From contig AEMJ01000164.1 of the NCBI GenBank assembly GCA_000166735.2, forward strand, positions 1 through 64,000: a DNA stretch of 64,000 nucleotides. Reading direction: 5' to 3'. A model generated the notes under the pieces. The model did not search any database. It was given only the letters and a program-made list of their open reading frames with translations, and had not been told where the DNA came from. Below, piece by piece: positions 3,498 to 30,401 of the stretch (its first letter is position 1; the number at the start of each line of letters is the position of its first letter). A program made the position numbers and the translations under genes. The DNA is from Leuconostoc inhae KCTC 3774 (GTDB lineage: Bacteria > Bacillota > Bacilli > Lactobacillales > Lactobacillaceae).

Positions 3498-3648
3498 GTG
3501 GAGCGCTCACCGCAAAACATATATTGGTGAATGTGATATCTGCATCGCACAAAAAACTAAAACGTGGTTTTCCCACATGATATTTTTTATTTCGTTGAAG
3601 GCTCACATTCCGTCTCCCTCACACTTAACGCGCAGATATCTACCCCTT
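3498..3648 (-). promoter_or_regulatory. Tetrahydrofolate (THF) riboswitch
   Basis: The minus strand carries the conserved core GCGTTAAGTGTG (3631-3620) after GGGGTAG, then GGAATGTGA, CAACGA and a 3' block ending GCGGTGAGCGCTCC. GATATCTGC (3640-3632) pairs with GCAGATATC (3543-3535), and GGAATGTGA pairs with TCACATTC just after that helix, reproducing the long-range pseudoknot of the THF class. CTCC beside the folT ribosome site can pair with GGAG, so control is probably translational: folate binding hides the site. Confidence 0.88.
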
Positions 3649-3772
3649 TTTTTATTTGTCATATTGACTCACCCATTGTAGCATCTTTCTATCCGAACAA
3701 TACAAAAATAGTAAACATGTTAAAATAATGACATATAAGACGATCAATAATGACGTTTCAAGGCGGATAAAC

Positions 3773-4513
3773 ATGACACACAATTTATTAGAAAAACCTC
3801 TCATCACAATTACCAATGTCATTTGGAGTTTTGATGCTCAAACACATGATATTAAACTTTTGTTAATTAAACGTTCTGACAGCCCTTTTAAAGATTTTTG
3901 GGCTTTGCCTGAAACTTGGCTACGCATCAATGAAAGTGCTCATGACGCGACTTTGCGACTAGTTAAAGAAAAACTCGGTCTAGACTTACCAGATGTTCAT
4001 GCCGAACAGTTAGCAACTTTTACAGATCCATCACGTTCACCAGAAGAACGTGCGCTATCTTTAAGTTATATGACCTTTTTGCCACAGCAACCGTTGCTGA
4101 ACCCCGGTCCTGGTGCAACAGACGCACAATGGTTCACACTTCAAAAACAAAAATCAGGTCTTTTTCGTTTCAAAAACCTTGATTTTGTTTTTACGACGTT
4201 AGCCGATGACGATTACATTAATCACAAAAATCAAATGGCTGACAAACATTTAGCTTTTGATCACAATTGGATTTTAACTGTTGCCACCAAAAGAATTATG
4301 AACAAATTGAATTATCAACCGACTATTCTCTTAATTCTCGGACCATCTTTCACTTTAAAAATGGCCCGTCATGTATTTGGCGTTTTTGGAAAAACTGAAC
4401 CTGACAACTCAAATTTCTTACGAAACCACCAAGACCTGTTACAACCTCTTGGTGCAAGCATTCAGAATAAACCTGGACGTCCTGCAAAACAATATCGGTT
4501 GCTTATTAATTAG
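3773..4513 (+). CDS. nrtR: NrtR-like Nudix-related transcriptional regulator
   Basis: The 246-residue product has an N-terminal Nudix-like fold (residues about 8-150) and a C-terminal region ending in GRPAKQYRLL, as in the winged-helix half of NrtR regulators that sense ADP-ribose or NAD metabolites. The Nudix box is degenerate: where an active enzyme has G-x5-E-x7-REUxEExGU, this protein reads LPETWLRINESAHDATLRL followed by VKEKLGL, lacking the first catalytic glutamate of the REUxEE core. It is therefore a ligand sensor. The start at 3773 follows AAGGCGG. Its neighbour is the niacin transporter niaP, as expected for this regulon. Confidence 0.8.
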   Translation: MTHNLLEKPLITITNVIWSFDAQTHDIKLLLIKRSDSPFKDFWALPETWLRINESAHDATLRLVKEKLGLDLPDVHAEQLATFTDPSRSPEERALSLSYMTFLPQQPLLNPGPGATDAQWFTLQKQKSGLFRFKNLDFVFTTLADDDYINHKNQMADKHLAFDHNWILTVATKRIMNKLNYQPTILLILGPSFTLKMARHVFGVFGKTEPDNSNFLRNHQDLLQPLGASIQNKPGRPAKQYRLLIN

Positions 4514-4538
4514 ATTTCATGTACAATTCTCTTTAATA

Positions 4539-4562
4539 AATAAAAGTTAAAAAACTTTTATT
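4539..4562. promoter_or_regulatory. AT-rich perfect inverted repeat before niaP
   Basis: AATAAAAGTT and AACTTTTATT, 10 bases each with a 4-base spacer, lie 16 bases before the niaP start codon. The element could be the NrtR operator or a weak terminator after nrtR; its lack of G/C pairs and nearness to the ribosome site favour an operator. Confidence 0.4.
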
Positions 4563-4578
4563 AACATTAGGAGAATTT

Positions 4579-5745
4579 ATGATGGATAACTCTAAACGTT
4601 TCTTATTAATTATTGGTACAGCTTGGATGATTGATGCCCTCGATGTGGCACTATTATCGTTTATTATGCCCTTATTAAAAACAGAGTGGGCACTCAATGC
4701 AACCCAATTAGGTGTTGTTGCGGCTATTACTTCTGCTGGTATGATGGTCGGTGCCCTCTTGTGTGGTAGACTTTCCGATGTGTTTGGCCGTAAAAAAGTA
4801 TTAATAGGGACGCTCATATTATTTTCGCTCAGTAATTTAGCACTTGTTTTTGCCCCAAATGTCACTTGGTTTATAATCATTCGTTTTATCACAGGCATTG
4901 GTCTTGGCGGCGAATTACCTGTTGCAGCAACCATTATTGCCGACCGCTATACCGGTAAAAAGCGTTCACAAATGTTAGTGTTGAGTGACAGTTTTTGGGC
5001 TTATGGTTGGATTCTAGCATCATTAATCGCGTTTTTTGTCATTCCCCATTTTGGTTGGCGTATCGCTGTCATGCTAACTGTCATTTTTGCTAGCTATGCA
5101 CTCGTGTTAAGAAAACATTTACCACCAGATCCCTCAGTCAAAAACAAGCCCACAACACAGCCATTTCAAGAACTACTATTCCCTAAAAACAAACGACCAT
5201 TCATCATGATCAGTATTGTTTGGTTGATTGTCATGCTAACCTATTATGGCATATTTCTTTGGCTTCCCAGCGTGTTAGTTTTACGTGGTTTTCCAATTGT
5301 CAACTCAATAGGCTATACCTTGATCATGAGTATCGCGCAATTACCTGGTTACTATTTAGCAGCTCATCTTTTATCAAAGATTAATCCCAAAAAATTATTA
5401 ATCACCTATCTTCTGGGTACCATTGCCTCAAGTTTAGTTTTCATTCTGTCAACTAGTTTACCAATGGTCTTGCTCTCTGGAGCCTTTCTATCTTTCTTTG
5501 ATCTTGGTGCATGGGGAATTTTGATTGCTCTTACCCCCAGTTTATTTCAAACAAATATTCGTGGTACAGCTATGGGAACAGCTCAATCTATTGGTAGATT
5601 TGGTGCTACCATCGGGCCTTTTCTGGTTGGTTGGTTGTTAGATATGAAAACAGGTATTGCCTTTATCTTTAGCCTGTTTGTTGCACTATTGCTTATTGCT
5701 GTCATCATCATTAATTTTGGTATCAGTGAACAGCCCTCACAATAA
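4579..5745 (+). CDS. niaP: Niacin/nicotinamide MFS transporter NiaP
   Basis: A 388-residue major facilitator protein with 12 predicted helices. The N-terminus (WMIDALDVALLSFIMPLL), the loop GRLSDVFGRKKV, the stretch GIGLGGELPVAATI and FWAYGWILASLIAFFVIP follow Bacillus NiaP closely. It imports nicotinic acid or nicotinamide for NAD synthesis. GGAG lies at a normal distance before the ATG. It follows nrtR in the same direction, 65 bases downstream, consistent with NAD-responsive control. The 3' end overlaps the convergent LysR gene by 9 bases. Confidence 0.82.
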   Translation: MMDNSKRFLLIIGTAWMIDALDVALLSFIMPLLKTEWALNATQLGVVAAITSAGMMVGALLCGRLSDVFGRKKVLIGTLILFSLSNLALVFAPNVTWFIIIRFITGIGLGGELPVAATIIADRYTGKKRSQMLVLSDSFWAYGWILASLIAFFVIPHFGWRIAVMLTVIFASYALVLRKHLPPDPSVKNKPTTQPFQELLFPKNKRPFIMISIVWLIVMLTYYGIFLWLPSVLVLRGFPIVNSIGYTLIMSIAQLPGYYLAAHLLSKINPKKLLITYLLGTIASSLVFILSTSLPMVLLSGAFLSFFDLGAWGILIALTPSLFQTNIRGTAMGTAQSIGRFGATIGPFLVGWLLDMKTGIAFIFSLFVALLLIAVIIINFGISEQPSQ

Positions 5746-27023: not shown

Positions 27024-27473
27024 TTATTTTATTAAGGGATTGAGCTGGAATTTAATTGGTGACTTATGACGTAGTAACCAATTCAAGATGGCAACAATGC
27101 CCGTGACAATAGTTAACAACCAGAATTGTTGTCGCTGAAAATTAGTTGTCATCTGTAAAATAATAAAACCAAGTGTGAACCAACCGAAATAGGCCGCCAT
27201 TGTGTTCCCCCCAATTCGTAATATTTTATCAATCACGTTTTCTGGACCGTCACTTAGGAATTTAACATGTACCCAATCAAAAAATAACATGATGAATACA
27301 AAACTAATCAAGTCAAACGACACAAACTTCACGATCGATAAATAATCACGCGCGGGAGAAAAATGCGACACACCGTGATAAAGTAGTAAGCCATAAGTCA
27401 TCATAATATCTGATCCAATAATAAACAATAACCAACTAACCGGTTTTGCCCGCACCATATCTCTAATTAACAT
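27024..27473 (-). CDS. Four-helix membrane protein of unknown function
   Basis: A 149-residue protein with four clear hydrophobic segments (about residues 13-32, 49-66, 88-108 and 116-134) and short polar loops. I do not recognise a family. GGAGC lies before the ATG and a terminator follows, so it is probably a single-gene unit. Its neighbours, recQ and an NhaC-type transporter, do not suggest a role. Confidence 0.7.
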   Translation of the reverse strand: MLIRDMVRAKPVSWLLFIIGSDIMMTYGLLLYHGVSHFSPARDYLSIVKFVSFDLISFVFIMLFFDWVHVKFLSDGPENVIDKILRIGGNTMAAYFGWFTLGFIILQMTTNFQRQQFWLLTIVTGIVAILNWLLRHKSPIKFQLNPLIK

Positions 27474-27542: not shown

Positions 27543-28904
27543 TTACACGTCAGGGTTATCTTGTTTCAAACCAATACCTGTCATTGCTGACAAAAATGAC
27601 ATGATTGGTGACAATAAAGCAAACAACGTAAATGGTGCAAATTCAAGGACTGGCACGCCTAATGTTTGCGCAGCAAAACTACCTGCCACACCCCAAGGCA
27701 CCAAATAATTGATCACTGTGCCTGAATCTTCAATCGTTCGACCAAGTGCTAATGGTGACAATTTAGCTTTTTTAAAACTTTCTTTAAACAACTGACCTGG
27801 TAAAATTGTTGCCAAATACTGTTCACCAACCAAAAAATTAGCACCAATTCCAGTTACTAACGTTGCCAAAACAATCGAACGCTGGGTTCGTAAATGGCTA
27901 ACAATTGGTGCCATGACGCGGTTTAAAATACCTAAGCCACTGAGTAAACCACCTAAAGCTAACGCTAACATAACCATCATAATAGTTGTCATCATCGCAG
28001 ACATCCCTCCGCGATTAAGTAATGCCATCAGTGTTGGATTCGTACTTGTCGTCTGAAAGCCATCAACTAATAGTTTCGCCCAAGTTGTAATAGCATGTTG
28101 CGTTAAGAACATGACACTTGATACTAATACATTGATCATAAGTGCCGGAATAGCAGGCATTTTAAACCATGCTGTCACAACTAATAGACCAAGTGGTACA
28201 ATTGTCCACCATGTTGGTTCCAACTGCGGTAACAAAGCCGTAATTTGATGTGTGGCTGCTGCGTCAACATGATGACCAAAGCCCAATAAAATTGTCACGA
28301 TAAATGTCAAAATCCAAGCTGGTACAGTAGTCCACATCAGATTTTTAATATGTGCAAATAAATCAGTTTCAGAAATAGCACTTGCTAGATTAGTTGAATC
28401 TGATAATGGCGAATTTTTATCGCCAAAAATTGCACCTGATAAAATAATACCAGCAACCAAAGCAGGGTTGATACCCATTAACGTTCCAACGCCCATCAGC
28501 GCAACGCCAACTGTCGAAATCGTTGTAAATGCACTACCGATTAGCGTACCAATAATTGACGTTGTTACGAAGGCTGTTGGCAAGAAAAAAGCAGGCGTTA
28601 ATACTTTAAAACCAACCCAAATCATCGTTGGAATCACACCAGTAGCTAACCACAATGCAATGAGTGACCCAATTAATAAAAATAAAAATAAAGGTGTCAA
28701 ACCTGATTCAACACCTTTAATTAGTGCTTTTTGGCTATCTTGCCAAGAAACACCACTAAAACGTGCAACAATCATAATCATACCAATCGCGAGTAAAATG
28801 GGCGCAATTGGTGCTAGACCAAAACCAATTACACCGATTGCCAAAATAGTGATCGTAGCCACTACTAGTAACACTGAAGTTCCTGTGCTTAATTTATTGT
28901 TCAT
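27543..28904 (-). CDS. NhaC-family transporter, T-box controlled
   Basis: A 453-residue membrane protein with about 11-12 helices of the NhaC antiporter superfamily. The motif GAIFGDKNSPLSDSTNLAS in the middle is diagnostic. NhaC members include Na+/H+ antiporters, the malate/lactate antiporter MleN and the amino-acid carriers of the YheL type. The T-box leader directly upstream means transcription depends on an uncharged tRNA, so amino-acid uptake, probably of tyrosine, is more likely than sodium export. GGAG precedes the ATG. Confidence 0.85.
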   Translation of the reverse strand: MNNKLSTGTSVLLVVATITILAIGVIGFGLAPIAPILLAIGMIMIVARFSGVSWQDSQKALIKGVESGLTPLFLFLLIGSLIALWLATGVIPTMIWVGFKVLTPAFFLPTAFVTTSIIGTLIGSAFTTISTVGVALMGVGTLMGINPALVAGIILSGAIFGDKNSPLSDSTNLASAISETDLFAHIKNLMWTTVPAWILTFIVTILLGFGHHVDAAATHQITALLPQLEPTWWTIVPLGLLVVTAWFKMPAIPALMINVLVSSVMFLTQHAITTWAKLLVDGFQTTSTNPTLMALLNRGGMSAMMTTIMMVMLALALGGLLSGLGILNRVMAPIVSHLRTQRSIVLATLVTGIGANFLVGEQYLATILPGQLFKESFKKAKLSPLALGRTIEDSGTVINYLVPWGVAGSFAAQTLGVPVLEFAPFTLFALLSPIMSFLSAMTGIGLKQDNPDV

Positions 28905-28944
28905 CCTAGTTCTCCTGCCAATTTTTTATAACAACAATAAAAAA

Positions 28945-29150
28945 GTCCCTGCTGTCACATTGACAACAGGGACGAATTGACATTTAAAAATCCGTGGTAC
29001 CACCCAGCTTACGCGCTAAAAAGCACATCACTTTGACATTTGATAACATGGTGCTGCCATGCTTAAATCGATAGCTGTATTTCGAATATCAACACCTGTG
29101 CAGTTTTCACCAACCACTGCTTCTCTTAACGCCGAATGTTTATTCTACTC
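28945..29150 (-). promoter_or_regulatory. T-box riboswitch (probably tyrosine)
   Basis: The minus strand shows the T-box core GGGTGGTACCACGG (29005-28992) and a terminator GTCCCTGTTGTCA...CAGCAGGGAC with six T residues (28973-28945). Upstream lies a stem I with AGAGAAGCAGTGGTTGGTG. In the specifier region GAAATACAGC, a TAC codon (29079-29077) sits in the usual place after GAA and before A, pointing to tRNA-Tyr; that reading is less certain than the T-box itself. Confidence 0.88.
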
Positions 29151-29182: not shown

Positions 29183-30401
29183 CTATGCCACTGGATTTTT
29201 GTCAATACGTCGTGACATTGTCAACGCTAGTAAACCAGTGATTATTATCATAACAATAAATACAGATAAAAATAACATGTTTGTCCATCCATGATCCATC
29301 ATAACACCTGAATATATTGGGCCAACAACACGACCTGAACTAATCATCATTGAGACAAATCCTTGCGCTTGTCCAGCAACTTCTTTAGGGGTAATTTGAG
29401 CAACCCATGCTGGTACTTGCGGACTTTGTAGCATTTCACCAAGCGTTAGTAGTTCAAAAACTAGTACAATTTGCCAAAATGTATTCACAAAAATCAAAAA
29501 AAGAAACTTAAAGCGAAAATGACACTGCCTAAAATAACGGACACATGATACGGATGCTTATTGGCCCAATTAGAGACAAATTTCTGCAATACAATAATTG
29601 TGATCCCATTAATCATCCACAAGTCGGCATAGTTACGCGTTGGCATCCCCAATGTTTTCATATGCGGTGCCATCACTGTTTCCCAGAGCATATAAGACAG
29701 ATAAGTAATAAATAAAAGTGCCCCAATAGCAATTAGAACCGGCGTTAATTTGAATTTTTTCTTGTCACTTCTGGCTTGTTAAACTGTTCTTCTTTATCAT
29801 TAGCTCTCACATCGATTAAATTATCAGTATCCAACGACACATTAAATTTAGTAATAATAATCAACGTTAATCCAAAATAAATGGCAGTCGAAATCATCAT
29901 CAACAAGCTAAACCCATAATCGAACAAATAACCAACAGCCAATGTTCCCAACACAACACCAATATTTAAAACGATGTACATATTATTAAATATAACACGC
30001 GTTTTTTGACCAGGTACAGTTGTTGCAAATGAGTTCACTAATGTCTGCTCAACACCCATGCCAAAGTTCGCTATCCAGATTAAAATAGCAAATACTGGCC
30101 ATTTATTAAAGAAAATAAGGCTTGCTACAGCTGCTAAAATAATAATACTTGTCATAACCATGGCGACATATGGTCGCCAATGATCAAATAATTTACCGCC
30201 AACAAATGAGCCAAATAAACTTACCATTGCGCCAATCATCAAGACAACACCAGCCGTTGTAAAACTCTGATTTAACACACCTGTGATATATAGGGTCATA
30301 ACAGGCCAAATCATAGAATTCCCCGTGCTGGATAGCAAAGTTCCCAAAAGTAGCCATTTTTCATTGAGCTGTCGTGGTTTATCAGCTAAATTAGTTTGCA
30401 T
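29183..30401 (-). pseudogene. MFS multidrug-type transporter, frame-disrupted
   Basis: Three frames (29745-30401, 29494-about 29750, 29183-29497) together make one 12-helix major facilitator protein of about 405 residues. The N-terminal part has the loop GGKLFDHWRPYVAM after helix 2. The joins need one extra base in T6 29755-29760 (giving RKKFKLTPVLIAIGALL) and in A7 29496-29502 (giving SFFFLIFVNTFWQ), both plus-strand positions. The protein resembles drug-efflux MFS carriers of lactic acid bacteria; the substrate is unknown. Confidence 0.7.

Follow-up and report, generated by a model that had tools for sequence, protein, structure and literature searches.

Introduction

YheL was reportedly named a tyrosine transporter by Panina (2003) and by Vitreschak (2008). 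In the open-licence papers searched, none was found that pairs yheL with a T-box. A preliminary description of the locus studied here had invoked reports of T-box-controlled NhaC proteins of the YheL type, and these reports stand in so far as Table 1 of Wels et al. 2008 (PMC2494555) lists a tyrosine T-box before NhaC in six species, namely B. anthracis, O. iheyensis, L. plantarum (2), L. acidophilus, L. johnsonii and E. faecalis. They do not extend to B. subtilis 168, for which the accessible part of that paper lists no such pair. An early acquisition is argued there, and Leuconostoc has 0 occurrences in the main text. The pairing of a Tyr T-box with NhaC was thus already predicted for other bacteria in 2008, and in Leuconostoc it is an ordinary one.

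NhaC-type genes are also tied to tyrosine in the tdc operons (PMC4932888, PMC9413887, PMC12607914, PMC3492074). In the accessible sections of these papers the role of the tdc-operon nhaC is called unknown (PMC4932888) and, in a review of 2025, still uncertain (PMC12607914), while the last gene of the operon is given as tyrT, a putative tyrosine transporter (PMC9413887). Judging by the operon order, tyrT may well be of the NhaC type. A further NhaC-like gene under the control of an amino-acid-sensing RNA is found in C. difficile; according to the available excerpt it is preceded by a lysine riboswitch (PMC11477304), i.e., by another RNA class with another ligand.

The locus described in this work lies within a stretch of 64,000 nucleotides (hereafter the window) of Leuconostoc inhae KCTC 3774, contig AEMJ01000164.1. 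The source of the window is, as judged from sequence, a Leuconostoc of the gelidum group; its carrier shares 97% identity with the corresponding protein from L. gelidum KCTC 3527 and 100% with the one encoded in a second genome of its own species. As in the accessible entries for the group of Wels et al., a predicted Tyr specifier is combined with an NhaC-family gene directly downstream. The locus differs from this group in that its leader remains under the Rfam gathering score and in that most of its Weissella relatives read UAU. Unlike the tdc-operon genes, it belongs to a genus whose 19 searched genomes yielded no tyrosine decarboxylase.

The leader RNA

The NhaC-family gene, encoding a carrier of 453 aa and candidate tyrosine importer, occupies positions 28904 to 27543 on the minus strand. 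Immediately upstream on the same strand a T-box leader RNA (RF00230) was detected at 29165-28965 with 76.8 bits, which corroborates the arrangement given in the preliminary description. The match covers the full model (1-219) and had an E-value of 7.7e-17 in a search of 701 bases and of 7e-15 across the whole window. With its right end at 29150, the previously described region misses about 15 bases of the leader as well as a sigma-70-type promoter-like site (TTGACA, 17 nt, TAGACT) at 29205-29177 (-), into which the 3′-end of the MFS gene further upstream extends. In the pattern scan this site showed 10 out of 12 matches; as 14 promoter-like sites were found against 6.3 expected, it is a mere consensus match. 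With its score below the gathering score of 93, the leader does not appear in a default Rfam scan. Of 18 T-boxes detected in the same genome at E <= 0.001, four exceeded the gathering score and 14 were lost by the default scan.

From the Rfam alignment, an antiterminator containing the T-box bulge UGGU was placed at 29005-28969 (-), with the T-box core TGGTACCACG at 29002-28993 (-) holding the bulge. A terminator-like hairpin of 13 pairs followed by a T run was revealed by the pattern scan and by the leader fold at 28973-28945 (-). It has the sequence GUCCC in common with the antiterminator, so that the two structures compete; four terminator-like sites were found in the stretch scanned against 1.6 expected. 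The upper part of stem I comprises AGAGA and GGUUGGUGAAA, followed by GAA-A-UAC-A. Folding of the whole leader gave a z-score of -2.58, four of 200 shuffled sequences being as good, and the strong terminator alone could be the source of this signal. The single-sequence fold of stem I gave no support (z 0.81; 158 of 200 shuffles equally good). In the second genome of the species, 320 bases were compared, among them the leader, which is letter-for-letter the same. The motif TGGTACCACG occurs twice in the whole window. Its second copy, at 42056-42047 (-), was rejected as a candidate; it resides within an ORF (42928-42029) that by eye resembles a histidine kinase, and has no Rfam match.

The specifier codon and the cognate tRNA

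Identification of the specifier by the pattern GAA-N-NNN-R alone yielded many false candidates and missed many leaders, and alignments made with Rfam and MAFFT were used instead. The Rfam model, by which the preliminary description had proposed to fix the specifier of stem I, gave the column A-UAC-A with UAC (Tyr) at 29079-29077 (-), and in eight orthologue leaders (L029, L033, L036, L040, L046, L053, L079 and L088) the same column contained UAC or UAU. A MAFFT alignment of the window leader and 75 orthologue leaders disclosed UAC in 66 and UAU in 10 out of 76 sequences; the flanking bases on the 5′ and the 3′ side each take all four letters. Median identity to the window was 53% for the aligned columns on the 5′ side of the specifier, indicating that the conservation of the specifier is not simply due to recent kinship. 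The loci do not count as independent samples, since one strain contributed both L034 and L035, and one species L065 and L087.

The leaders reading UAU came from eight of the nine Weissella loci (L033-L039 and L042) and from two Lactobacillaceae metagenome bins (L031 and L032), whereas the ninth Weissella locus (W. muntiaci, L078) has UAC. Four of these ten leaders (L031, L033, L034 and L035) also contain a UAC four bases 3′ of UAU, which is absent in the other six; UAU is therefore the sole tyrosine codon common to all ten. The synonymous change between UAC and UAU in Weissella is a small new detail.

The genome also encodes a fitting tRNA. An exact pattern matched no tRNA at all, but with one mismatch allowed a tRNA-Tyr was recovered (L136, positions 232-148, minus strand), whose anticodon is gta (GUA) and whose discriminator base, by eye, is A. 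It thus suits both the specifier UAC and the bulge UGGU, which pairs with ACCA.

The synthetase leaders of this genome served as a control, though a weak one, as the gene was known beforehand: eight of nine, tyrS among them, were readable as the codon of their own amino acid. The T-box of tyrS (L014, C893) shows GAG-U-UAC-A, and by eye the leaders of leuS, ileS, serS, valS, alaS and argS gave CUC, AUC, UCC, GUU, GCU and CGG, respectively, while ACU was read for thrS (ACC likewise stands for Thr). For hisS the reading was GAC (Asp), the usual specifier of hisS-aspS operons.

We also considered that the specifier may not be UAC and that the T-box may belong to another amino acid, the frame being shifted by one base to ACN (Thr) or AUA (Ile). 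The serS leader (L013), inspected by eye, illustrates that in T-boxes the specifier can lie at varying distances from GAA. Such a shift is nevertheless highly improbable here, since frame 0 alone gives one amino acid in all 76 leaders; frame +1 would split them into 66 with a Thr and 10 with an Ile codon, and frame -1 into 59 with Ile, 14 with Leu and 3 with Val. Within the window, the A following the codon and a possible basal helix formed by UAGC before and GCUA after the specifier loop, which by eye can pair, suit the UAC frame. From the covariance-model column, the conservation in 76 leaders and the tRNA-Tyr of the same genome we concluded that the predicted specifier of the leader is tyrosine. 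This agrees with the preliminary description, in which TAC had been named as the probable specifier.

Distribution among relatives

Within the genus, 18 of the 19 genomes carry the NhaC gene. As a sample of orthologues the best 80 of 171 relatives were taken, 75 of which possess a T-box core upstream of nhaC. No T-box core was detected upstream of the gene in L028, L030, L070, L073 and L085, which were excluded from the alignment; these five orthologues lacking the leader are another small new detail. For L070, merely 439 bases of upstream sequence were present. In Leuconostoc litchii (L028, upstream of 3001), inspection by eye suggested that a shortened leader is left, in which a promoter-like site and parts of the terminator region persist. 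This locus has a separate T-box 3′ of nhaC, at 4402-4646, which is its sole Rfam match. In Fructobacillus papyrifericola (L030), nhaC by eye closely follows an MFS-like gene, with no T-box core between them, and the two Fructilactobacillus loci (L073 and L085) are likewise devoid of it. Fructobacillus, Fructilactobacillus and Apilactobacillus are fructose-loving genera. The idea that such genera generally lose the T-box was rejected, since the Apilactobacillus loci among the aligned orthologues retain it.

Across the order, PF03553 matched in 97 of 148 genomes, and the best 30 loci were analyzed, 13 of them full-length relatives at 42-47% identity and 17 distant. Among these 30 loci, a T-box core preceded eight of the 13 full-length relatives, with UAC in all eight by eye. 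In L125 a stretch resembling stem I lies at the start of an over-long called ORF, and four of the 13 (L118, L120, L127 and L128) exhibited no T-box core. In two of the 17 distant loci (L109 and L111) a T-box-like core was seen whose bulge differs. The T-box thus appears to accompany this NhaC branch mostly, not always. The loci devoid of the core, five of the 80 and four of the 13, were counted against the function as an importer discussed below.

A tree was calculated by a quick method from the window protein, the complete set of 80 orthologues, four remote rows and 12 of the 13 full-length relatives from the order-wide sample. L128 was omitted, for which the alignment figures are those of L127, and L125, scored by eye as having a T-box, was trimmed by 75 residues, its called ORF extending back through the leader. 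The tree required seven label changes for presence of the T-box, with 24 of 94 inner branches open and a warning of long-branch joining, so that its deep part is not trusted. The changes point to several losses or gains of the T-box.

The carrier protein

The protein of 453 aa matched PF03553 with an E-value of 8.7e-49 and 166.8 bits, the gathering score being 23, and is the sole PF03553 protein found in its genome, the assembly of which is 89% complete. The NCBIfam model of the Na+/H+ antiporter NhaC (TIGR00931) is matched over nearly its full length with 361.2 bits, narrowly under the curated cut-off of 370. Hence, the protein belongs to the same sequence family as this antiporter but remains below the equivalog threshold, and its gene lies behind a predicted tyrosine T-box. 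The best of 42 aligned orthologues gave an E-value of 6.1e-129 with this model, compared to 7.6e-108 for the window protein, and some orthologues probably pass the cut-off. The preliminary description had expected automatic annotation as a sodium/proton antiporter; this applies to the relatives, for among the 10 listed of 160 matching plasmid records eight are named "Na+/H+ antiporter NhaC" and two have no listed gene.

A true Na+/H+ antiporter tied to the supply of tyrosine and serving pH balance around tyrosine decarboxylation would account for the TIGR00931 scores, just below the cut-off for the window protein and stronger in some orthologues. On account of these stronger matches it was weighted slightly up and an importer slightly down. 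In its accessible sections the 2025 review (PMC12607914) suggests that nhaC of the tdc operons may serve pH homeostasis, and the available excerpt of PMC11477304 offers the same two options for the C. difficile NhaC that follows a lysine riboswitch. A model for tyrosine decarboxylase (TIGR03811), however, identified none in the 19 genomes of the genus, the one studied here included, as against NhaC in 18; as for sensitivity, five of 14 control genomes matched, none above the cut-off, so that the search is without a true positive. With this proviso, the pH role proposed for the tdc operon does not fit Leuconostoc. Moreover, a T-box would activate its gene at a shortage of charged tRNA-Tyr, contrary to the presumable needs of a pump linked to decarboxylation. 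We therefore regard an antiporter of this kind as unlikely.

The structure of the carrier was predicted with AlphaFold2 from 42 sequences (pLDDT 87.1, pTM 0.85). Its nearest fold in the PDB copy was the integrative model of MleN, 9a59_A, aligned over the whole length with a TM-score of 0.91 and 28% identity (Z 49.2, rmsd 2.5, 451 residues aligned); as 9a59 itself was built with deep learning, this top match compares a model with a model. The next matches, with Z about 13 to 25, were DASS proteins (NaS1, NaDC3, LaINDY and VcINDY), TRAP transporters and ArsB, for the most part structures solved by cryo-EM or crystallography. When solved structures were searched by sequence, just two matches resulted, both at chance level. 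MleN, DASS, TRAP and ArsB share the fold of elevator-type substrate carriers, and the window protein is predicted to be a carrier of this type. The MleN of 9a59 is that of B. subtilis, with malate and lactate as its substrates. The window protein resembles it in fold over the whole length and differs from it by the low identity of 28%, handling of malate or lactate having no support here. The fold is common to carriers of many substrates and is silent on tyrosine.

The carrier could also move another substrate with or against tyrosine, either as a broader aromatic carrier or as an exchanger like ArcD or MleN. In favor of this, the arginine/ornithine antiporter ArcD (NF052307) was the second NCBIfam match, MleN is the nearest fold, and single permeases are often broad in specificity, as stated in the accessible part of Wels et al. 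2008 (PMC2494555). Yet the ArcD score of 277.6 bits is far under the cut-off of 650, and the Tyr specifier in 76 of 76 leaders argues for tyrosine as at least a main physiological target, so that a different or wider substrate range appears rather improbable.

Proposed function

The leader, its Tyr specifier, the matching tRNA-Tyr, the T-box of tyrS, the presence throughout most of the genus (18 of 19 genomes, with tyrosine decarboxylase detected in 0 of 19), the sole PF03553 copy, the MleN-like fold and the pairing reported in 2008 together make a tyrosine importer, turned on by uncharged tRNA-Tyr via antitermination, the best explanation of the locus, to which we assign a probability of roughly 0.77. 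We infer tyrosine as the substrate, the direction of import, the coupling ion and antitermination within the cell. When tyrosine is short, uncharged tRNA-Tyr (anticodon GUA) would pair with the UAC specifier of stem I, while the UGGU of the antiterminator would bind the free ACCA end of the tRNA. The terminator at 28973-28945 would then be blocked and transcription would enter the carrier gene. The carrier, a member of the NhaC/MleN branch with an ion-transporter fold of the predicted elevator type, would import tyrosine, probably driven by Na+ or H+. The genome contains one match to PF02153 (prephenate dehydrogenase), so the cell may also make tyrosine, in which case the carrier would be an on-demand salvage route; as import may then not be needed, this match was counted against the importer. 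In the open-licence papers searched we found no uptake, expression or transport test of a tyrosine-linked NhaC.

For the lactic acid bacteria as a whole, we consider it fairly probable that the nhaC genes preceded by a tyrosine T-box constitute one large group of dedicated tyrosine importers with an elevator fold of the MleN/DASS type, misnamed Na+/H+ antiporters, and with a Weissella branch reading UAU. If the importer reading holds true, the standard label "sodium/proton antiporter" would be corrected to a likely entry route of tyrosine in many food bacteria, Leuconostoc among them, a point of relevance to the supply of tyrosine in fermentations. It also bears on the role of nhaC beside tyrosine decarboxylase, which the accessible sections of the 2025 review call uncertain (PMC12607914). 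With one NhaC-family protein and no decarboxylase found, the Leuconostoc genome is a clean place for a tyrosine transport test of a function that has seemingly been a prediction since 2008.

Further observations

Two other T-boxes of the genome precede transporter genes. One (L005, C833:14003-14221) has AUG (Met) in the specifier column and lies in front of an ECF substrate-binding protein, which the models assign to riboflavin transport (NF010182, 250 bits; PF07155), in disagreement with the Met specifier. The other (L015, C836:19160-19385) is by eye readable as ACU (Thr) and is followed by an APC permease ORF of 218 aa, whose best NCBIfam match is ThrP with a score far under the cut-off.

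Downstream of nhaC, between this gene and recQ, an ORF of 149 aa (27024-27473, minus strand) shows membrane-like stretches by eye; it gave 0 matches in the Pfam and NCBIfam profile search. On the other side of the leader, the MFS-type gene (29183-30401, minus strand) is represented by two ORFs of 104 and 218 aa, while at its position another genome of the same species (G151) contains a single open stretch of 420 codons. From this comparison, the split is probably an assembly or sequencing error in the window genome. The tyrS gene (C893:13279-14510) likewise matches as two overlapping pieces, one with an internal TGA, perhaps another assembly error. Finally, a tetrahydrofolate riboswitch was detected in the window at 3523-3649 (minus strand) with 59.1 bits, above its gathering score of 36.
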